Virus record (IMG/VR): IMGVR_UViG_3300035670_001298
Location: 1-22,932 of that record
DNA: 22,932 bases
Direction: 5' to 3' (one strand)
From: a virus
Positions 4,302 to 22,755 of this stretch are shown piece after piece; positions within the stretch are counted from its first letter, which is position 1; the number at the start of each line of letters is the position of its first letter. The notes beneath the pieces were generated by a model, which searched no databases, had not been told where the DNA came from, and worked only from the letters and a program-made list of their open reading frames with translations. The translations under genes were made by a program, and so were the position numbers.

Positions 4302-6296
4302 TCAGCCTCCTCCTAAAAACCAGGGCCGCGCGCCGCCCATCATGCTCCCACCGATCGACCCGAGCGCGTTGACCAAGGCTGCACGCTGATCCATCTGCGC
4401 TTGGTAGGCCGCCTGCTGCGCCTGTTGATTAAGCTGATACGCGCCGAGCACGTTCGTCTGCCCCACGCTCGTCGCCGTGGGCGCAGCCGGGTTCAGCGGC
4501 GTGATCGGCGCGCCGCTCATGATCGACACAATCTCTTGCAAAGGGATCTGCCGCGCAGCCAAGTCGGCCGCGTAATTGCGCTGGTAATCGGCCTCCGCCT
4601 CGCCCAGGTTTTGCGTCCGCTGCGCCAAAATCTCAGCCAGCTGTCGCGAGCGATCCTGACTGGACATATCAAACGCCGACCGCAACCGGCCCAACGCGTC
4701 CGCGTTCTGCGCTTGCGCCAACTGCGACCCCAAGGCCGAGGCTTGCAAGCCTTGGTTGAAGCCCTGCCCGGCGCGCGCCAGCTGATCCGCATTCGCCTGC
4801 GACCGGAAATCAGCCGCCATGCCCATCCCTGCAAGGCTGTCGGCTCGCTGCTGACCCCGAAAGCCGGCCTCCAAGTTGAGACGCGCCAGCTGGTCCGCGT
4901 TCATCTGGCCGCGCATGTCCGCCGTCATGCCGGTCGCTGCCAAATCATCCGCACGCTGCTGGCCGCGCAGGCTCGCCTCAAGCCCTGTGCGAGACAGCTG
5001 ATCCGCGTTCATCTGGCCGCGGAAATCTGCCGCCATCCCGGCGCGCGCCAGCTGATCCGCGCTCATCGCCTGCGTCAGGCCTGCGCCCTGCGCCATCTCA
5101 CCCACATTTTGGCCCCGGACCGCCAACGCATTTGCCAGATCCGCTTGCCGCAACCCAAGCTGATCGGCCCGCTCGGCCTGCCGCAATCCCGCCATCTGGT
5201 TCAGCGCGCCGACTTGGTCCCCGTAACTCGCGCGCGCCTGATTAAAGCCCTGACCAAGCTCCCCCGCCGCTTGACCGCGCGCCATCATGCCGACCTGCTG
5301 GGCGTTCATCAGCGCGCTGGCGTAGGCGTTCGCGCGCCCCTCCTCGAAGGCTGAGCGCTCGGCGTTAAATGCGTCCGACCCGGCCGTTATGCCTTGATTG
5401 GCAAGCCGGGAGCGCAAATCCTCATCCGCGCGCGCAAAACTGCGGTCCATGCCCGCGGTTGCGCCCTCAAACGCCCGGCGCGTGATGTCGTCCCCGAAAT
5501 TGCCGAGCTGTTGGGTCGGATCGTAAGCGCCGGCATTCACCGCGCCGACCTGACCCGCATTGAACGCTTGCAGGTTTAAGGCGCCCGGATCCGTTTGGGT
5601 CGGATTGAACCGCCCTAGCTGCTGCGTCGGATCGTATTGCCCGAGCTGCATGCCCTGCGCGCGCGGATCCAGGTCGGACAGATTTAAGCCCTGCTCCCGC
5701 GGGTTTAAGTCTGAAAAGTCCAACCCGCGAGACCGAGGGTCCAAATCAGACAGCCCCAGCCCGCCAGCGCGGGGGTTTAAATCAGACAAGGAAAGGCCGT
5801 TCGCGCGCGGGTCCATGTCTGCAAAACTCAGACCGGCTTGACGCGTCGGATCATACTGCGCCGCTGTCCGCGTCGGATCGTATTGCCCCAGCTGCATCTG
5901 CGGCGCAGACCGAGGATCGAACTGCGAGGCGTCGTATGACCCCAGCGCCTGCGCAAGGTCGAGCCGCCCGCCTGTCGCCTGCTGACTGTCAAACCGACGC
6001 GGCGTAAACGCTTGGCCCAAAATGGACTGCACCGTGTCGATTTGCGACAGGCCTAAATCATTGAGCGCAATGCCGGTCTGCTCTTGCCCCTCGCGCAAAC
6101 GACGCTGGTTGTCGCTTTCCGTGACGGTCTGCGTCCACACGTCGCCGTCATTGCTGTAATTGACCGACCCGTAGGGCGTCTGCTGATTGACCCGGTTGAG
6201 CGTCGCCTCCAAGCGCGCGGTCTCCGCATTGGCGTCCGCTTGCGCTTGGCTCACCACCCGCGGATCAGGCGGCGTGGGCGGTCTTGGTTTGCTCAC
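4302..6296 (-). CDS. Repeat-rich internal virion / ejection-type protein (664 aa)
   Basis: GTG at 6296 is preceded by GGAG seven bases upstream; the gene overlaps the acetyltransferase gene by 32 bp. The start (PPTPPDPRVVSQAQADANAE, then NQQTPYGSVNYS) matches a family common beside podovirus ejection genes: a Pro/Asp opening, a TPxGS motif and a helical body. Residues 155-226 hold six 12-residue repeats of the form GLxLSDLDPRxx, flanked by LGQYDPTQQ-like units. Residues 413-510 hold five full 18-residue repeats and a partial sixth. The C-terminus ends in a small Gly-rich tail (PWFLGGG). Cys is absent, and it is rich in Gln, Ala, Asp and Arg. Its position after the nozzle-like gene suggests an internal or tail-lumen protein. 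I infer a structural role and see no enzyme motif. Confidence 0.7.
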   Translation of the reverse strand: MSKPRPPTPPDPRVVSQAQADANAETARLEATLNRVNQQTPYGSVNYSNDGDVWTQTVTESDNQRRLREGQEQTGIALNDLGLSQIDTVQSILGQAFTPRRFDSQQATGGRLDLAQALGSYDASQFDPRSAPQMQLGQYDPTRTAAQYDPTRQAGLSFADMDPRANGLSLSDLNPRAGGLGLSDLDPRSRGLDFSDLNPREQGLNLSDLDPRAQGMQLGQYDPTQQLGRFNPTQTDPGALNLQAFNAGQVGAVNAGAYDPTQQLGNFGDDITRRAFEGATAGMDRSFARADEDLRSRLANQGITAGSDAFNAERSAFEEGRANAYASALMNAQQVGMMARGQAAGELGQGFNQARASYGDQVGALNQMAGLRQAERADQLGLRQADLANALAVRGQNVGEMAQGAGLTQAMSADQLARAGMAADFRGQMNADQLSRTGLEASLRGQQRADDLAATGMTADMRGQMNADQLARLNLEAGFRGQQRADSLAGMGMAADFRSQANADQLARAGQGFNQGLQASALGSQLAQAQNADALGRLRSAFDMSSQDRSRQLAEILAQRTQNLGEAEADYQRNYAADLAARQIPLQEIVSIMSGAPITPLNPAAPTATSVGQTNVLGAYQLNQQAQQAAYQAQMDQRAALVNALGSIGGSMMGGARPWFLGGG
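4767..5060 (-). repeat. 18-residue (54-bp) tandem repeat with 36-residue superperiod
   Basis: Residues 413-510 of the 664-aa protein repeat exactly every 18 residues. Unit 1 is ADQLARAGMAADFRGQMN and unit 2 is ADQLSRTGLEASLRGQQR; three further units and a partial sixth follow. The unit ends alternate between QMN (units 1 and 3) and QQR (units 2 and 4), so the true period is 36 residues. No gaps are needed to align them. Confidence 0.9.
5619..5834 (-). repeat. 12-residue (36-bp) tandem repeat, six units
   Basis: Residues 155-226 of the 664-aa protein are six ungapped 12-residue units: GLSFADMDPRAN, GLSLSDLNPRAG, GLGLSDLDPRSR, GLDFSDLNPREQ, GLNLSDLDPRAQ and GMQLGQYDPTQQ. Gly at 1, a hydrophobic residue at 2 and 4, Asp/Asn at 8 and Pro at 9 are conserved. 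Related YDPT units flank the block on both sides. Confidence 0.9.
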
Positions 6297-6714
6297 CGTA
6301 GTGCTCCCAAACGAAAAGCCGTGAAATCACCGCGTCATCCGCCCCGAGCTGCAGCTGCAGTCGCGCCTCGGGCTTAAACCCCAAACCCCAGACAAACCGC
6401 AGCGCGCGCTGGTTAGAGGCGGGTGTAACGCTGTACAGCTTGCGCGCTCCGCAATGCCTGAACGCGTAGTCAAACATCAGCGCAAAGACGTCGCGCGCCC
6501 GCATCCAACGCGGATCCTCTGCGACCGCGCTCACCTGCAGCGTCCCATAGGCCGGCTGATAGTCGTGGAAGACCACCACGCCCATCAGGCGGCCATCCTC
6601 CGCCTCGACCCCGATCGCTGACGCGCCGCTTGGAAACCCCTGCTCGCGCACGACCGGCAGCCGCTGCGCCGCCCAGGCCACCAGCTCTGCGGAGCGGTCC
6701 AGCACCGCCCTCAA
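6265..6714 (-). CDS. GNAT-family N-acetyltransferase in the late operon
   Basis: The 149-residue protein has the GNAT pattern: a beta hairpin with a VVVFHDY strand (around 47-53), a strand LQVSAVAEDPRW, the helix RDVFALMFDYAFRHCGARKLYS, and the late motif NQRALRFVWGLGFKPEARL, where Asn and the GF turn are typical. The acetyl-CoA pyrophosphate loop (Q/RxxGxG/A) is reduced to RWMRARD. The likely start is TTG at 6714, overlapping the previous stop as TTGA; a GTG at 6705 is the alternative. Small GNAT proteins recur among podovirus head and tail genes, but their substrate is generally unknown. Acetylation of a virion or host protein is inference. Confidence 0.75.
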   Translation of the reverse strand: MRAVLDRSAELVAWAAQRLPVVREQGFPSGASAIGVEAEDGRLMGVVVFHDYQPAYGTLQVSAVAEDPRWMRARDVFALMFDYAFRHCGARKLYSVTPASNQRALRFVWGLGFKPEARLQLQLGADDAVISRLFVWEHYGEQTKTAHAA

Positions 6715-14197: not shown

Positions 14198-16074
14198 AAC
14201 ACACCCCCATTCATCGCATCACGCTGCGCACTTAGCGCCGCCTTGGTCGCATCCAACTGAATGCGCTGCCGCTCGCGCTGGTCCTCCGCCATCGCTTTCT
14301 GCGCATCCAGCTGCAGCCGCGCTTGGTCAGCCTGCCCTTGCTGCTGCACCCGCATCATTTTCGGATCCGGCTGCGGAGGCCGCTGCGCCGCTTGCGCTCG
14401 CTCCTGCGCCACCCCGCGCATCGCCTCCTCAACGGCCTCCTCCATGCTTGCGCCCTTGGGGAAACGCCGCACCGCAAACAGCAAAAGCTCACCCATCAGC
14501 CCCGTAAGAGCCGGCGATTGCCCTGCAATAGCGCCCGCCTCTTTCAGAAAGCCCGTCACGGCCGTGACAAACTCGGTCGCGCCCGCCTTCTCCGCCTGCT
14601 CGTCGGCCTCAATCGTGCTATCCGTCTCAATCTCGATCCGATACAGGCGCGCGCTCTCTGTCGCCAACAATTGCTTGGCCGCCTGCGCCATCTGCATCTG
14701 CTGCGGGGTCGTGATTTCTAGACCCGCCAACGACACCAGCGTTTGCGCATCAAAGTGCTCCGCCATGATCTCGGCTTTGAGACGGTACAGATCACGCACA
14801 AACCGCTGCACGTCCTTTTGCAGCCGCCGCACGCGCTTGGAGCCCCAGTTAGCCTTAATCTGCTGAGCCGTCGCTGTCTCATTTGGATCGCCCGACCCGC
14901 GCATAATGTCCGCAATGCCGCTGATCTCATAAAGATCCGCCTTCATGCGGTCGCGCGCCTCGTACAGACGCTGCAGCACCACCACAATGTCGCCTATGGG
15001 CAGAAAGTCGACGCTGCCCTTTAAGCCGCCCCGCTCGCCAAACAGCGCGAAATTATCAATCGGGATCAGCTCGTTGTTATCGGCGTCGCTCAGCAGCCGC
15101 TGCAGGCCCTCAACGCTGGCGTCGTACACGCCGCGCACCGCCAACGCCTTTTGCATCAGCCCAATGCGCTCGGTCAGCTCATCAAGCTCGTCGGCTTGGT
15201 CCTGGTAAATCACATAATCCGGCGTCGGGATCAGGTCGTCCCCCGCCACCGTGCCACGCATTGGCGCGGGACACGGAAAAAAGCCCTGAAAATTGATCGG
15301 CGCAGGAGCCTCTTGCAGCAGGCCGTTCTCCTCGCTCCCCGGCGCGACAAACAGCACGTTCCCGCTCGTCTTGTCCCACACCTCCCAAACCGTCGCCTTG
15401 TTGACCTGCTCGGGCGCCGGGTGTTCCTTCGCCCCCTCCGGCGTGTGGTCCAGCTTAATCGTCGCGCCAACCTGACCAAACCGCTCCACCAGCTCGCGCC
15501 GCGTCAGATAAATCCGCCGCGCGCGCCACCAGATCTCCTCGTCACAGCGCCCCGGCGCTTCGGCGTAGTCCTTCCAATGCACCTGCATGATGCGGACTTG
15601 CTCGCCGGCTTTAATGTCATACCCCATCGGGTCGGTCTGAAACTGCGGCTCGTACACCACCCAGGACTGACCGCGCCCCACCAGCAGCCGATCCATCACC
15701 GCCGCTTCAATCGTCACATCGACATCATACAAATCCGCGCACGCCATCAGGCTGCGCTCAAGCATTTGCGACGCCATGCGCGCGACCGGGTCTTTGTCCT
15801 TATGCCGCCGCTTCACCGACGGCTTGGGCGTCTGACTGTACACGCTCGGCAGGATCGTCTGGACGTTGGAATGCAGGATATTAAACCGCCGGCGATTGTC
15901 GCGCTTGGTGCGGTCGGCGTCCTTATACCGCTTAATGATCTTCTCGCAGCGCTGCCGCCACGATTGTTCGCGCTGCTCTGCGGCGCGCAATTCAGCCGCC
16001 CAAAACTTGCCGCGCGCACCACGGTCTTCGGGCGATGGCTCCTGCGCCATCATGCCCTCTGCACCGTCGATCAT
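14194..16074 (-). CDS. Portal protein (626 aa)
   Basis: ATG at 16074 overlaps the terminase stop (ATGA), with GAGAGG just upstream. The N-terminal helical region (KFWAAELRAAEQREQSWRQR, then NRRRFNILHSNVQTILPSVY) is characteristic of podovirus-type portals. Next come the wing with RGQSWVVYEPQF and RREL, the stem and clip region (TERIGLMQKALAVRGVYDAS), and the crown helices (RLYEARDRMKADLYEISGIAD, then GSGDPNETATAQQIKANWGS). The C-terminal 90 residues are a long Gln-rich coiled coil, which may form a barrel-like extension as in P22 gp1. It forms the 12-mer vertex through which DNA is packaged by the terminase encoded upstream. Confidence 0.88.
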   Translation of the reverse strand: MIDGAEGMMAQEPSPEDRGARGKFWAAELRAAEQREQSWRQRCEKIIKRYKDADRTKRDNRRRFNILHSNVQTILPSVYSQTPKPSVKRRHKDKDPVARMASQMLERSLMACADLYDVDVTIEAAVMDRLLVGRGQSWVVYEPQFQTDPMGYDIKAGEQVRIMQVHWKDYAEAPGRCDEEIWWRARRIYLTRRELVERFGQVGATIKLDHTPEGAKEHPAPEQVNKATVWEVWDKTSGNVLFVAPGSEENGLLQEAPAPINFQGFFPCPAPMRGTVAGDDLIPTPDYVIYQDQADELDELTERIGLMQKALAVRGVYDASVEGLQRLLSDADNNELIPIDNFALFGERGGLKGSVDFLPIGDIVVVLQRLYEARDRMKADLYEISGIADIMRGSGDPNETATAQQIKANWGSKRVRRLQKDVQRFVRDLYRLKAEIMAEHFDAQTLVSLAGLEITTPQQMQMAQAAKQLLATESARLYRIEIETDSTIEADEQAEKAGATEFVTAVTGFLKEAGAIAGQSPALTGLMGELLLFAVRRFPKGASMEEAVEEAMRGVAQERAQAAQRPPQPDPKMMRVQQQGQADQARLQLDAQKAMAEDQRERQRIQLDATKAALSAQRDAMNGGVL

Positions 16075-17552
16075 ACCCTCTCCCGCACCCTACACTGTTT
16101 CATATCCCACACAGGGGGCAAAACCACCTGCGTCGCTGTTGGCGTCGCCTTGACCTCCCAGTCTGCCGGCTCGCGCTTGTCCACTTTGCGCGCCCACGGA
16201 CGGCTCATGCACGCATACCGCGCCTCGTCCGCCACGTGATCCTCGCCGTCGGTGTCCAAATCCTCCGGCTTGTCTGCGTCGTGCTGCAGGGTTGGCACGG
16301 TGCGGACAAAATCACGACACGTGCTGAAAACGTACAGCATTGGCCGCTCGTTGTGCCCGCGCAGACGCCAGCGCATCTCGTCCCAGCCGCCCATCGCGCC
16401 GTTGCGGCCTACGCGCTTGTTGTCAGCCGGCCGCCACACCACCTTGCGCCGCGCCATGATCTCCGCCCGGCTTGGTCCGCCGTCTTGCGCAAAAATCGCA
16501 GGGTCCGCCACGCCGTAGGCGATCTCCTCGCCCGCCTCGCGCTCGCGGATGCCGTCAGCGACCTCCTCGGTCGTGAGACGCAGGCCCTCGTTTGGGCCGT
16601 CTGCACCGTACCATTCCCGATACCGCACCAGCGCGCCCCGCGGTACGATCCCCTCGGGCCGAATCAGATCCTCGCTCGCCACAGCCCACCAGCCGCAGGA
16701 GAAGGGCCTCGCAAAACCCCAGTCGAACGACCGAAACCGCAACCAATGCTTGGGGACCTCAAACGGCGCCAGCACATGCCGGGGCGACCATTCTGAAAAG
16801 AACGCGCCCTCAACAATATTCCAGTCGCCCTCAAGCCACGCCCGCACCAGCTGCGCGCTGCCGCTCTCACTGAGGCGAGCCACGTAAGTCGGGTCATTGC
16901 GCATCAGCATCGGATTGTCGCTGAGGCGCGCCGGAATATAGACCCGGCTGGTCTGCAATTCCAACCCCGTGAACGGGCACACAAACGTGTGCCGAGTGAT
17001 GTTGTACGCGCCAGCATCAATGTAGCGCTGCTTGACCCATGCGTGACCTGAACCCCCAGGGTTGCAGGTCGCCCTAAAACCCGTCGGCACACCCGCGCCG
17101 CTGCGTAGCGTCGCCCGCAGCTTGTCGATGGGCTTGGGGTCCGCAAACTGCGTCAGCTCCTCGACATACACACGCGTGTAGTCGTGGCCCTGGTACTGAT
17201 CGGCGTCCTGATCGCGCTCCAAATAGCTCATGCGGACGATCGCGCCGTTGTCGAACACAAAACGGCTCTTTTGGTCCTGCCATTCGGCCATGCCGCGATA
17301 AATCTGCTTGGCGCGCTCAATCGTGCTCATGAGCGCCACCCGCGTCCGGCGAATGAACAGCCCCTTTGCGTTTGCCCCATACGCATCGGCATGGATCGCC
17401 CACTCGCCTAACGCCGCATCGGTCTTCCCGCCGCCCCGCGCGCCGCCATACACCACGTCGTCGCAGGTGCACTTGACAAAGTGATGTTGCGGGCCGGGCT
17501 GCGGCGCCCAGGCTATTGCAGCGGTTGCTCGCTGCGCACTTGCTCCAGCCAT
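16071..17552 (-). CDS. Terminase large subunit (493 aa)
   Basis: The packaging motor. The ATPase domain shows a Walker A loop at residues 36-44 (GGARGGGKT) and a Walker B strand with acidic pair at 128-132 (VYVEE), followed by a TCNPGGSGH coupling motif near 162-170. The nuclease domain shows the RNase H-like acidic residues Asp277 (SFDWGF), Asp350 (GVADPA) and Asp438 (EDHVADEARYA). The length is typical. The ATG at 17552 lies inside the small-subunit gene (40-bp overlap), and no later ATG, GTG or TTG precedes the conserved region. Ribosome-site spacing is poor (GAGGA abuts the ATG), so translation may depend on coupling to the upstream gene. Confidence 0.93.
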   Translation of the reverse strand: MAGASAQRATAAIAWAPQPGPQHHFVKCTCDDVVYGGARGGGKTDAALGEWAIHADAYGANAKGLFIRRTRVALMSTIERAKQIYRGMAEWQDQKSRFVFDNGAIVRMSYLERDQDADQYQGHDYTRVYVEELTQFADPKPIDKLRATLRSGAGVPTGFRATCNPGGSGHAWVKQRYIDAGAYNITRHTFVCPFTGLELQTSRVYIPARLSDNPMLMRNDPTYVARLSESGSAQLVRAWLEGDWNIVEGAFFSEWSPRHVLAPFEVPKHWLRFRSFDWGFARPFSCGWWAVASEDLIRPEGIVPRGALVRYREWYGADGPNEGLRLTTEEVADGIREREAGEEIAYGVADPAIFAQDGGPSRAEIMARRKVVWRPADNKRVGRNGAMGGWDEMRWRLRGHNERPMLYVFSTCRDFVRTVPTLQHDADKPEDLDTDGEDHVADEARYACMSRPWARKVDKREPADWEVKATPTATQVVLPPVWDMKQCRVRERV

Positions 17553-19639: not shown

Positions 19640-20025
19640 CGCACCCGCTCCTGCACTTGCGCCCGCGCGCTCTTGAGCGCCGCCTGCACGTCTTCCAGGC
19701 TGCGCACGACAAAGCAGGGGACGCCGTGGGTCGTGAGCAGCGTCATGACCTCTCCCTGCGCCTGGGACACGCGGGCCTTGGCCCCGCTGACCTTGCCGCT
19801 GCCAAGCAGCTTGGGCGGCGCCTTGACCTCCAGGCCCACGACGAGGCCGTGAGTGGGAACGCAAAACAGGTCCGGGACGCCCGCAAGCGCGCCCTCCGCT
19901 TTAAGGTTGGCGGCGTCCACGGGACGGCGCGCGCCGCCATTGGGCGTCGACCAGCAGGGAATCCGACGCATCCTCAGGTAAGTAACGATGGCGCGTTGCA
20001 GTTGGCTTTCAGCGCGGCGGGTCAC
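19636..20025 (-). CDS. VRR-NUC family nuclease (129 aa)
   Basis: GTG at 20025 overlaps the previous stop (GTGA). The core PD-(D/E)XK motif is visible as GVPD at 49-52 and EVK at 66-68, with an N-terminal helix (ESQLQRAIVTYLRMRRIPCW) and a C-terminal strand and helix (GVPCFVVRSLEDVQAAL). The length matches free-standing phage VRR-NUC proteins, which are structure-specific nucleases thought to act on branched DNA. Its place after the replication genes is like the lambda nin region, so resolving replication or recombination intermediates is a sound inference. Confidence 0.85.
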   Translation of the reverse strand: MTRRAESQLQRAIVTYLRMRRIPCWSTPNGGARRPVDAANLKAEGALAGVPDLFCVPTHGLVVGLEVKAPPKLLGSGKVSGAKARVSQAQGEVMTLLTTHGVPCFVVRSLEDVQAALKSARAQVQERVR

Positions 20026-20888
20026 TTTGCCTTGCTCCGATTGAGCGTCTGCATCAGGTCCCGCAGAACGCGCGCGCCCTCGGCCCGCTCCTCATCGGTC
20101 GGCTCTTCGGTCCGCGGCACGTAAAGCCTCCGCACCGGCGCCGGCTCGGCGTCCCCGTGCTCATCGTCCTGCGCGTAGCGCGCCCCCTCCAGGATCTCGA
20201 CGCCGCAGTCGTCCGCGATCTGACCGACGTCGCGCTGCAGCCGCTCAGCCATGAAGGCCGTTGTCAGCACCGCGCTCGCCGTAAACCGACAATTCCGGCG
20301 GTTGAGCCAGCTGTAGACGTACGCGTCGCCGCGCGCGGCGCGCACCCGCTCCACAAACCGCGCCGTCGCGCCGATCGGATACGGACCTGCGCCGTCGTCG
20401 CCTGGAGGGGCGGTAGACGCCGCGCGGCGCAAGGCCTCCACGCACGCCAGACGCGGCGCGTACAGTTCGCGGCAAGCGCTCATGAGCTCGTGAAGGGTCG
20501 GCCACCACTTGCCGCCAGCCGTGTCCGGCCAAGTCTGCACAACGTGCAGCGCAATGTCGGCCGGAAACCGCGACAGCGCCTCCGCATAGGCCCGCGTCGC
20601 CGCAATGATCACGCCGTGATCCGCATCGTCCTGGCGCACGGTCATCGCAGCCAGCACGCTCAACGCCTGCAAAATCGCTGAGACGTCAGCAGGCCGCGAG
20701 GCGCGGTCGTACCGCGCTAGCATCTCCTGGATCTCCGAACGGATCGGCGTCCCATGGATCGTCGCCCGCGGCCGCTCGTCGCTGCTCTGCGGCACGAGCA
20801 GCAACCGCCAGCTCCCGGATGATGCTTGCGCGAGAGCGTCGCTGGTTTGCTGCGGATGGCGGCGGGCTATAGGCGCGGGGCTGTTCAT
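20022..20888 (-). CDS. Replication partner protein, lambda P position (288 aa)
   Basis: The region EIQEMLARYDRASRPADVSA through RFPADIALHVVQTWPDTAGG and KWWPTLHELMSACREL has the helical pattern of phage helicase-loader-type proteins, where a W/F-P-T-L motif is common. The C-terminal half is polar, ending DLMQTLNRSKAK. Two starts are plausible. ATG 20888 has GGAG seven bases upstream but overlaps the O-like gene by 203 bp; ATG 20723 overlaps it by 38 bp. In the overlap this frame has about four-fifths G/C at third codon positions by hand count, against about three-fifths for the O-like frame, so I prefer the longer form. Its place after the initiator suggests that it loads the host helicase. 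Confidence 0.65.
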   Translation of the reverse strand: MNSPAPIARRHPQQTSDALAQASSGSWRLLLVPQSSDERPRATIHGTPIRSEIQEMLARYDRASRPADVSAILQALSVLAAMTVRQDDADHGVIIAATRAYAEALSRFPADIALHVVQTWPDTAGGKWWPTLHELMSACRELYAPRLACVEALRRAASTAPPGDDGAGPYPIGATARFVERVRAARGDAYVYSWLNRRNCRFTASAVLTTAFMAERLQRDVGQIADDCGVEILEGARYAQDDEHGDAEPAPVRRLYVPRTEEPTDEERAEGARVLRDLMQTLNRSKAK

Positions 20889-21582
20889 AGGTCATCTCCG
20901 GATTGCCGGCGAGGCGGCGGGTGCGGATGGCAAGGGCGGCCTCGCGGACCCAGGTCCAGGACCGGATCAGCTTGCCGCGGGCGCGGCAGGAGGCGGCGGT
21001 GGCGTCAATCGCCGGGAGGACGTCGTCGTCCCAGTCGCAGGGATCCCCCCGCGTCGGCTCACACAGGGCCTTGAGGTCAGCGTAGTGGTGCACCGAGCCC
21101 TGCGTGCGATCGAGGGCGTCCCCCGCCCTCGCCTGCGCCTGTCGCAGACGCTCCGGCCAAACGTCGAAGGTCGGACCCTCGCGCGCGCACGCAAGAGCAT
21201 CATCATCAGATGATGGTTCTAATATTCCTGGTTCAGCGCGCTCAATTTGAACGCTGGTTAGATGCGTATTTGACCGCTGGTCAAATTGACCACTGGTCAA
21301 ATTGAGCGCTGGTTCGCTGACCGCAAGCGTCATCAAATACGAGCCAAGCGTGCCGTCTGGGCGGCGGCGTCGCTCCCGCTTCAAAAGCCCAAGCTTTTCC
21401 ATCTCAACGATGGCGCGCCGGACCGTGGACACAGAGCACTCGGCCTCCTCGGCGACGCGCTCAAAAGCCGGCCAGCAGTCGTGACTTTGGTTAGCGTAAT
21501 TCGCCAACACCAGCAGGACGGCTTTATTGGTCGCGCTGCCAGCCTTTACGCTCAAGGCCCAACTGATCGCTTGCACGCTCAT
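20686..21582 (-). CDS. O-like replication initiator with winged helix (298 aa)
   Basis: ATG at 21582 overlaps the previous stop (ATGA), with GGAGG eight bases upstream. Residues 1-90 form a winged helix (ISWALSVKAGSATNKAVLLV, CWPAFERVAEEAECSVSTVR, RAIVEMEKLGLLKRERRRR), the fold used by lambda O and related phage initiators to bind iterons. A linker follows (about 90-130), and its DNA carries four iteron-like repeats. The C-terminal domain (FDVWPERLRQAQARAGDAL, later WDDDVLPAIDATAASCRARG, then SWTWVREAALAIRTRRLAGN) is helical, with an acidic tail likely to contact the next protein. The protein should open the phage origin and recruit the helicase machinery. Confidence 0.78.
   Translation of the reverse strand: MSVQAISWALSVKAGSATNKAVLLVLANYANQSHDCWPAFERVAEEAECSVSTVRRAIVEMEKLGLLKRERRRRPDGTLGSYLMTLAVSEPALNLTSGQFDQRSNTHLTSVQIERAEPGILEPSSDDDALACAREGPTFDVWPERLRQAQARAGDALDRTQGSVHHYADLKALCEPTRGDPCDWDDDVLPAIDATAASCRARGKLIRSWTWVREAALAIRTRRLAGNPEMTYEQPRAYSPPPSAANQRRSRASIIRELAVAARAAEQRRAAAGDDPWDADPFGDPGDASAVRPRLAAC
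21245..21315. other. Iteron cluster, probable phage replication origin
   Basis: Four 16-base repeats share the core TTGAnCnCTGGT: 21245-21260, 21268-21283, 21284-21299 and 21300-21315. The last three are directly abutted (16-bp period), and the first is 7 bp further away. The two central units are inverted repeats (TTTGACC/GGTCAAA and TTGACC/GGTCAA). A less GC-rich stretch with the perfect palindrome CATCATC-A-GATGATG (21201-21215) lies to the left. The cluster is inside the linker of the O-like gene, just as the lambda origin lies in O. Confidence 0.75.
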
Positions 21583-21809
21583 CTAAGTCGCCTCCACCGC
21601 AGCCAAGCCGGCCGCGGCTGTTGAACGGGGTTGAAAGGAAGTTTCCGCTCAGCCAACGGAGGGGGGGGAGGCGCGCGCCACGGGCGGCCGCGCGACCGGT
21701 ACAGCAGCCCGGCGACAGCGCTGCGCGTTACGCCAAGCAACCGGGCAATCGCGCGATAGCTCAGCCCGGCCGCGTACAGCTCCTGCACAAGCATTTGGCG
21801 CGGGCTCAT
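21579..21809 (-). CDS. Small GcrA-like helix-turn-helix protein (76 aa)
   Basis: ATG at 21809 overlaps the Cro-like stop (ATGA). Residues 4-40 (RQMLVQELYAAGLSYRAIAR, then LLGVTRSAVAGLLYRSRGR) form a helix-turn-helix resembling the DNA-binding end of GcrA, the alphaproteobacterial cell-cycle regulator (pattern GLSxxxIAxxLG-VTRxAVxGxxxR). A Pro/Arg-rich tail follows, with no GcrA sigma-binding domain. A run of eight C codes for PPPPP and is a likely spot for sequencing error or frame slippage. It occupies the place of lambda cII. It could equally be a generic sigma-region-4 or resolvase-type HTH. An early regulator is likely. Confidence 0.65.
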   Translation of the reverse strand: MSPRQMLVQELYAAGLSYRAIARLLGVTRSAVAGLLYRSRGRPWRAPPPPPLAERKLPFNPVQQPRPAWLRWRRLR

Positions 21810-22030
21810 GCGGCAGCCGCGTTCTTGTTTTGGCCCAAATTATGCAGGGCCTCGTAAGTTATACCGCTAATGCCAAAACGGCGCGCGGACTGAACAAGGC
21901 TCGCAAAATGCTCAGCCGGGATCTTGCCGCGGTGCTTCCACATGCGGATCGCCGCGGCGTCTATGCCCGTGTCCCGCGCCAACCGCGCGGTCGAAGGCCA
22001 TAGCTCAAGAAGGTCTTTTACCGAGGTCAT
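21806..22030 (-). CDS. Cro-like repressor (74 aa)
   Basis: The likely start is ATG 22030. The longer frame upstream would run through the operator and promoter. The helix-turn-helix is at residues about 12-42 (STARLARDTGIDAAAIRMWK, then HRGKIPAEHFASLVQSA), followed by RRFGISGITYEALHNLG. This pattern is common in Cro-type proteins of alphaproteobacterial prophages. It is divergent from the CI-like gene and first in the leftward early operon. The predicted transcription start falls on or near the ATG, so its mRNA may be leaderless. It should bind the same operators as the repressor and turn early transcription down. Confidence 0.78.
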   Translation of the reverse strand: MTSVKDLLELWPSTARLARDTGIDAAAIRMWKHRGKIPAEHFASLVQSARRFGISGITYEALHNLGQNKNAAAA

Positions 22031-22035
22031 GTCAT

Positions 22036-22056
22036 CTTGTAACCCAGAGTTACAAG
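22036..22056. promoter_or_regulatory. Repressor operator O1 (left, strong)
   Basis: A perfect 8-base inverted repeat, CTTGTAAC and GTTACAAG, around a 5-base centre CCAGA. It matches the operator at 22735-22755 at 19 of 21 positions and overlaps the leftward promoter. Confidence 0.8.
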
Positions 22057-22065: not shown

Positions 22066-22081
22066 GCCCCAGAGTTACATT
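22061..22081. promoter_or_regulatory. Repressor half-operator O2 (left, weak)
   Basis: Only the right half (CCAGA then GTTACAT) is conserved; the left half is degenerate. Its centre is 25 bp from the centre of O1. It may allow cooperative binding and control the repressor gene. Confidence 0.5.
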
Positions 22082-22121: not shown

Positions 22122-22700
22122 ATGATGCACGATCGATTGCGGCGCGCCCGTATCCAAGCCGGGTACAAGAGCGCGCAGGCGTTTTGTGACGCCGCAGGCT
22201 TAGAAGGCTTTGTCTATCGCTCGCACGAGTCTGGGCGCCGCGCTTTCGACCCTGAGCAAGCGGCCGCCTACGCAAAAAAATTAAAGGTCCCCCCGGAATG
22301 GTTGCTTTATGCGCGCTCCGCCCCACAATGGGCCTATGTGCCTGTGGTGGGCTATGTAGGTGCGGGGGCGCAAGTGTATCCACTAGCAACAGACGAGCAT
22401 ATTGACTCGATTGAACCTCCTCCAGGCTGTCCTGAGGGAGCCTTTGCGCTCGTTATACGCGGCGACAGCATGTATCCGTCGCTCTCAGACGGAGATATGC
22501 TGGTGTGTGTTCACTACCCCGCTGAACACTTGTTGGGCAAAAGAGCTGTTGTCGACCTGTCCACAGGCGAGCGGCTGGTTAAACGGATTAGCCCAGGCGC
22601 CCGGCCAAACACCTACACCCTCCTCAGCGACAACGCGCCGCCAATCCCAGACGTGACCATCACGGCAAGTGCGCGGATCCTATGGATCGCGCCCGCATAA
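22122..22700 (+). CDS. CI-like self-cleaving repressor (192 aa)
   Basis: The N-terminal helix-turn-helix domain spans residues 1-65 (MHDRLRRARIQAGYKSAQAF, then YRSHESGRRAFDPEQAAAYA). The LexA/S24 peptidase domain starts at about 72. Its expected cleavage site is Ala81-Gly82 (YVGAGAQVYP), with catalytic Ser116 (RGDSMYP) and Lys154 (RLVKRIS). DNA damage would thus trigger RecA-assisted self-cleavage and induction. Two ATG codons (22122, 22125) are adjacent; the ribosome site is weak (GAAAG). It lies between two sets of operators and reads toward the ERF gene, as lambda cI reads toward PL. Its own promoter is not clear by eye. Confidence 0.92.
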   Translation: MMHDRLRRARIQAGYKSAQAFCDAAGLEGFVYRSHESGRRAFDPEQAAAYAKKLKVPPEWLLYARSAPQWAYVPVVGYVGAGAQVYPLATDEHIDSIEPPPGCPEGAFALVIRGDSMYPSLSDGDMLVCVHYPAEHLLGKRAVVDLSTGERLVKRISPGARPNTYTLLSDNAPPIPDVTITASARILWIAPA

Positions 22701-22726: not shown

Positions 22727-22754
22727 TTGACCGGCTCGTAACCCAGGGTTACAA
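22727..22754 (+). promoter_or_regulatory. Rightward early promoter (PL-equivalent)
   Basis: TTGACC (22727-22732) and TTACAA (22749-22754) are separated by 16 bases. The operator at 22735-22755 covers the -10 element and spacer, in the same register as in the leftward promoter. The predicted start is near 22761, leaving a leader of about 20 bases with GGAGG at 22771-22775. Confidence 0.65.
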
Positions 22755-22755
22755 G
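22735..22755. promoter_or_regulatory. Repressor operator O4 (right, strong)
   Basis: An inverted repeat of CTCGTAAC and GTTACAAG around CCAGG, with one mismatch between the arms. It differs from O1 at only two of 21 bases and overlaps the rightward promoter. Confidence 0.8.

Follow-up and report, generated by a model that had tools for sequence, protein, structure and literature searches.

A repeat cluster within an O-like initiator gene as the very probable replication origin of a temperate phage

What purpose do four palindromic repeats serve when they lie inside the coding sequence of a phage gene rather than between genes? The question arises from the window analysed here, the whole 22,932-nt stretch of IMG/VR record IMGVR_UViG_3300035670_001298 (itself a fragment of the phage), in which the repeats fall within a gene for an O-like replication initiator. 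We consider it very probable that the cluster is the replication origin of this temperate phage, housed within the gene of the protein that would bind it. The computed support comprises the repeats themselves, their class-conserved position, the covariation of their sequence with the recognition helix and wing of the initiator, and the low stability of the adjoining duplex.

The iterons, their gene and their neighbourhood

The elements at the site are as follows.

20686..21582, minus strand: O-like replication initiator gene, 298 aa, with an N-terminal winged helix (HTH_36), a linker and a helical C-terminal part
21302..21316, plus strand: iteron 1 (in gene order), imperfect palindrome TTGAGC-GCT-GGTTCG
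21286..21300, plus strand: iteron 2, perfect 6-3-6 palindrome TTGACC-ACT-GGTCAA
21270..21284, plus strand: iteron 3, perfect 6-3-6 palindrome TTGACC-GCT-GGTCAA
21247..21261, plus strand: iteron 4, imperfect palindrome TTGAAC-GCT-GGTTAG, 23 bp from iteron 3
21317..21322, plus strand: possible, weak half site CTGACC, 15 bp beyond iteron 1, from seed search and inspection
21201..21215, no strand assigned: palindrome CATCATC-A-GATGATG (CATCATCAGATGATG), from the sequence
21199..21248, no strand assigned: low-stability, AT-richer stretch, candidate unwinding element on the 3′ side of the iterons as the gene is read, from nearest-neighbour stability

The four copies of TTGAnCnCTGGT begin at 21247, 21270, 21286 and 21302 on the plus strand of the minus-strand gene, at start-to-start spacings of 23, 16 and 16 bp. 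A search of the whole window for the motif TTGANCNCTGGT gives exactly four hits, all within 21247–21313, against an expectation of 0.04, and none of 100 shuffles reached four copies; the site is also the best 16-bp tandem of the window, matching at 26 of 32 positions compared with a maximum of 23 in 300 first-order Markov sequences. These counts, together with the winged-helix matches of the gene, bear out the four-repeat cluster that an earlier note, made from the sequence alone, had placed in the linker of an O-like gene, and its two palindromic copies are the perfect middle pair, the outer two being imperfect. The palindrome and the less GC-rich stretch that it described alongside are likewise present: GC content in 21199–21248 is 40%, as compared to 65% for the contig, and by nearest-neighbour calculation, a duplex-stability check that had been proposed for 21200–21320, this is among the least stable 50-bp stretches; 21202–21301 ranks third among non-overlapping 100-bp stretches. 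Cumulative GC skew, the other proposed marker, fails here. It declines over the full length of the window, levelling off beyond about 20 kb, and has no turning point at the iteron site; GC skew is therefore uninformative on the origin.

The encoded protein matches phrog_1032 (1.8e-23) and phrog_391 (1.5e-19), both replication initiation families, and Pfam HTH_36 (2.2e-11). It has no match to PF04492 (Phage_rep_O) up to E=1, whereas lambda O and P22 gp18 match that family strongly; by sequence family the initiator is thus not lambda O and would be only its functional analogue. In the AlphaFold2 model, residues 1–90 have pLDDT values of 92–98 and include a predicted recognition helix (51–63) and wing (67–86), and the linker (98–140) falls below 50 and is predicted to be disordered. 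The iterons lie 265–335 nt from the gene start, inside the coding sequence, and encode roughly residues 89–112, that is, the end of the winged-helix domain and the linker. A PDB sequence search returned no meaningful match, Pfam no Rep-type (iteron-plasmid) family, and a fold search generic winged helices only, all above E 0.001; the weak structural matches include winged helices of initiators, such as 5kbj and 4pt7.

The genes on either side are:

20022..20888, minus strand: next gene (P0002), 288 aa, placed as gene P is in lambda, a possible helicase loader by position only
21806..22033, minus strand: small HTH gene, Cro-like by position, with a weak YdaS match
22122..22700, plus strand: divergent S24 repressor, CI-like by family matches

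Profile searches with P0002, which sits where lambda has the DnaB loader P, gave no family match and no recognised similarity to loaders or helicases. The order of S24 repressor, Cro-like and small HTH genes, O-like gene and next gene parallels known prophage immunity–replication regions with such initiators. The S24 repressor gene has operator-like palindromes (CTTGTAACCCAGAGTTACAAG and variants) to either side of it, at 22036–22056, 22068–22079 and 22735–22755. Farther away, the structural module carries an acyltransferase-like gene (6265–6714; phrog_4470, 5.3e-28), and the large terminase (16071–17552) reaches up to 71% identity to IMG/VR contigs. Within the 80 loci related through this terminase, many of them short, no O-like homologue was found, and the replication module therefore appears to be mosaic with respect to the structural one.

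In-gene repeats and recognition residues across the class

Relatives of the initiator were drawn from viral contigs and from genomes across the phylum and the orders of the genomes reached; after dereplication, with 420 nt as the minimum length, the class sample comprised 185 O-like genes whose winged helix is of the same kind. A cluster was called significant if its repeat score was reached by none of 100 codon shuffles of that gene. By this measure 167 of the 185 genes have in-gene repeats clustered directly behind the part that encodes the winged helix, a count that depends on automatic start choice and on the repeat seed; the clusters start between codons 76 and 150 (median 101), and that of the window was reached by none of 200 codon shuffles of its gene. 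The earlier note had proposed a search of related phages for the same repeats at the same place and had held that their absence would count against an origin: the position recurs, but the repeat sequence is not conserved, iterons across the class being very diverse within a recurring layout. A single-protein scan of viral contigs with the window initiator (P0001) found no relative, and the relatives collected by other routes include no close one of this exact gene. Iteron spacings in the class peak at 21–25 bp (mode 23), and spacings of 14–18 bp occur in 16 genes, including the window and L177, so that the 16-bp step is uncommon in the class without being peculiar to the window. Within its class the origin of the window is ordinary; what is of interest is the covariation described next, together with the AACC array.

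Which part of the protein does the repeat sequence follow? Beyond what the rest of the domain accounts for, iteron similarity follows the recognition helix, with a partial r of 0.34 overall and of 0.44–0.58 among closer genes (Mantel, 0 of 500). The best single predictors are columns 51, 68, 55, 69, 50 and 52, of which 50, 51, 52 and 55 belong to the recognition helix and 68 and 69 to the wing. A set of 75 disjoint sister pairs gives a partial rank r of 0.51 (0 of 2000 permutations), although the sequences compared are related and such pairing allows for kinship only in part. The two nearest full-length relatives, L177 and L207, amount to a natural experiment: their N-terminal domains are close except around residues 45–64; their iterons read CGGCCACAGTGGCCG and CGGAAAGATTTTCCG, respectively, and the approximately 33 nt directly after the iterons are identical.

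Scans by DNA alone reached further sites. A blind scan of IMG/VR for paired TTGACCnnnGGTCAA (TTGACCNNNGGTCAA) returned two viral contigs. In L428 the linker of an O-like gene from another phage contains four copies of TTGACCCCAGGTCAA, 22–23 bp apart (L428:3799–3881); the half sites are those of the window, the recognition helix is a different one. Viral contig L427 carries TTGACCTACGGTCAA twice at a 17-bp step (L427:853–884), and no winged-helix initiator match was found in that locus. The exact tandem motif was found in no viral contig and in four genome contigs, around which no O-like gene was recognised. Taken together, the sequence comparisons favour a model in which the iterons are bound by the winged helix of their own gene, and they likewise support a divergence of iteron sequence together with the recognition helix, as would be expected of an initiator with its own specificity, which is what the earlier note had suspected.

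Could the repeats instead be an operator, bound by a repressor or by the O-like protein for transcription control, with the origin elsewhere? A Rubrivivax MAG contains a tandem TTGACCAGCGGTCAAC with a 16-bp step (L007:2291–2318), nearly the iteron of the window, beside acyl-CoA thiolase and hydratase genes of fatty-acid oxidation; this palindrome, apparently outside any initiator gene and probably an unrelated operator, indicates that sites of this type can be used by transcription factors, and autoregulation through O binding would be compatible with an origin as well. Nevertheless, repeats 265–335 nt into a coding sequence, at a location shared by the great majority of relatives and covarying with the O-like protein's own winged helix, make a pure operator unlikely. 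Less likely still is that the DNA repeat is a by-product of a repeated linker peptide. The linkers of the class are indeed repetitive, and one clade keeps multiple-of-three spacings (15-15-15 in L190, L200 and L205), but 313 of the 562 iteron spacings in the class are not divisible by 3. Nor is the 16-bp step of the window, where successive copies consequently fall in different reading frames without giving a repeated peptide, which makes this a DNA-level feature; palindromy, moreover, is meaningless at the protein level, and the linker is predicted to be disordered. A functionless chance cluster is so improbable as to need little discussion, for although short motifs can recur by chance, four exact copies against 0.04 expected, unmatched in the shuffles and at a position common to the class, contradict it.

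A strand-specific array beside the iterons

In most relatives the iterons are followed by a second element, which the earlier note missed. The window has only two GAACC motifs there, on the coding strand of the O-like gene.

21230..21234, minus strand: GAACC element 1, with the motif of the class-wide array
21215..21219, minus strand: GAACC element 2, 15 nt downstream of element 1

The form typical of the class is an array at 12–13 nt. Within 90 nt after the last iteron, at least two AACC occur in 134 of 168 genes, as compared to 5.4% of control windows from the same genes; because the array was first noticed in part of these very sequences and its tests are post hoc, such counts describe it and do not test a prior hypothesis. 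Weighting by clusters at 60% domain identity, which allows for kinship only in part, leaves the array in 58% versus 6.6% of controls, and it is found in most members of 20 of the 32 clusters. No such excess is seen for the complement, GGTT, over this 90-nt region of the class genes. Spacings between AACC peak at 12, 13 and 17 nt, with all three reading frames represented. Codon choice points the same way: Glu–Pro codons use GAA and GAG in a ratio of 219:5 in the array region and of 81:125 elsewhere. In the 90-nt array region of GC-rich genes the ratio is 123:4 for Glu before Pro and 56:259 for other Glu, which, together with the presence of AACC in all frames, leads us to reject GAACC as a mere Glu–Pro motif in an AT-rich stretch; a codon bias towards AT likewise fails to account for the pattern. 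Judged by these sequence patterns, the (G)AACC array is kept at the DNA level.

The array has variants. Both L177 and L207 lack the GAACC form and repeat GATACG at 12 nt instead, and at the corresponding place lambda and P22 have ACAAAAGA-type repeats in common. In two O-like genes with no detectable in-gene iterons, L101 and L095, a GAACC array is kept at 17 and 12 nt, respectively. As for function, TrfA of RK2, a winged-helix initiator, recognises 13-nt repeats on one strand of the duplex unwinding element (DUE) (PMC4081077). The AT-rich region of lambda, as single-stranded DNA, is bound by lambda O (PMC7466680). On these grounds we read the (G)AACC array as a putative strand-specific unwinding element, one that may be bound on one strand like the RK2 13-mers. 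Titles, abstracts and term matches in the open-licence literature yielded no report of such an array.

Proposed mechanism and comparison with known systems

How might such an origin fire? Through its N-terminal winged helix, the O-like protein would bind the four palindromic iterons in its own gene, with initiator dimers presumably seated on the palindromes. The 16-bp step rotates successive palindromes by about half a helical turn, and sites 1 and 3 would therefore share a face. By analogy with the lambda O-some (PMC10797057), the multi-site nucleoprotein complex may bend the DNA and, as position and stability suggest, open the AT-richer 21199–21248 on the 3′ side of the iterons, whereupon the GAACC elements could mark the strand gripped after melting, and a phage or host loader would place the replicative helicase on the opened stretch.

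For the class as a whole we offer, at somewhat less than even confidence, a two-layer architecture, in which recognition helix and wing read fast-evolving palindromic iterons, and in which the members share a strand-specific (G)AACC array, spaced at 12–13 nt, that is gripped as a single strand when the DNA opens. If true, the iterons give each phage its own origin specificity, and the array is the phage counterpart of the RK2 13-mers and of DnaA-trios, a concrete candidate for one-strand DNA opening by such initiators. Independently of this reading, the comparison indicates that the in-gene origin is the general layout in a large class of initiators from temperate phages other than lambda, and since the data set pairs winged-helix residues with the DNA that they read, origins may become predictable from sequence.

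The closest parallels are the HTH_36 O-like prophage initiators of the phrog_1032 and phrog_391 type (e.g., Pectobacterium phage ZF40 gp14 and Salmonella phage S107), with which the window shares the winged-helix family, the neighbourhood and the codons occupied by the cluster. It differs from them in iteron sequence, in its shorter step and in having only two GAACC elements, 15 nt apart, where most of these relatives have at least two at 12, 13 or 17 nt. Lambda ori has four palindromic iterons in the linker of its initiator gene and an AT-rich stretch directly 3′ (PMC7466680), and it has in common with the window four palindromic in-gene iterons after the DNA-binding domain and an AT-richer stretch directly 3′. 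The description of the site as a lambda-style origin therefore holds for the layout, which the relatives share, but not for the protein family, lambda O being a PF04492 protein (5.7e-36) and the window protein, without a match there, an HTH_36 one (2.2e-11). The two sets of iteron sequences are unrelated, and the AT-rich stretch of lambda carries ACAAAAGA repeats where the window has GAACC. Iteron starts in lambda are 20, 24 and 23 bp apart as compared to 16, 16 and 23 bp here, so that the spacing is unlike lambda, as had been claimed, yet it recurs in other genes of the class. For P22 gene 18, the record annotates an in-gene rep_origin similar to that of lambda; the in-gene layout is shared with the window, whereas the initiator is of PF04492 and the iterons are different. 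The iterons of RK2 are not known to lie inside its initiator gene, the 13-mer consensus TAAACnTTnTTTT is unlike the GAACC array, and the window protein lacks a Rep-family match. The likeness to RK2 oriV and TrfA lies instead in the combination of a winged-helix initiator with iterons set beside a DUE whose four 13-nt repeats are bound on one strand (PMC4081077).
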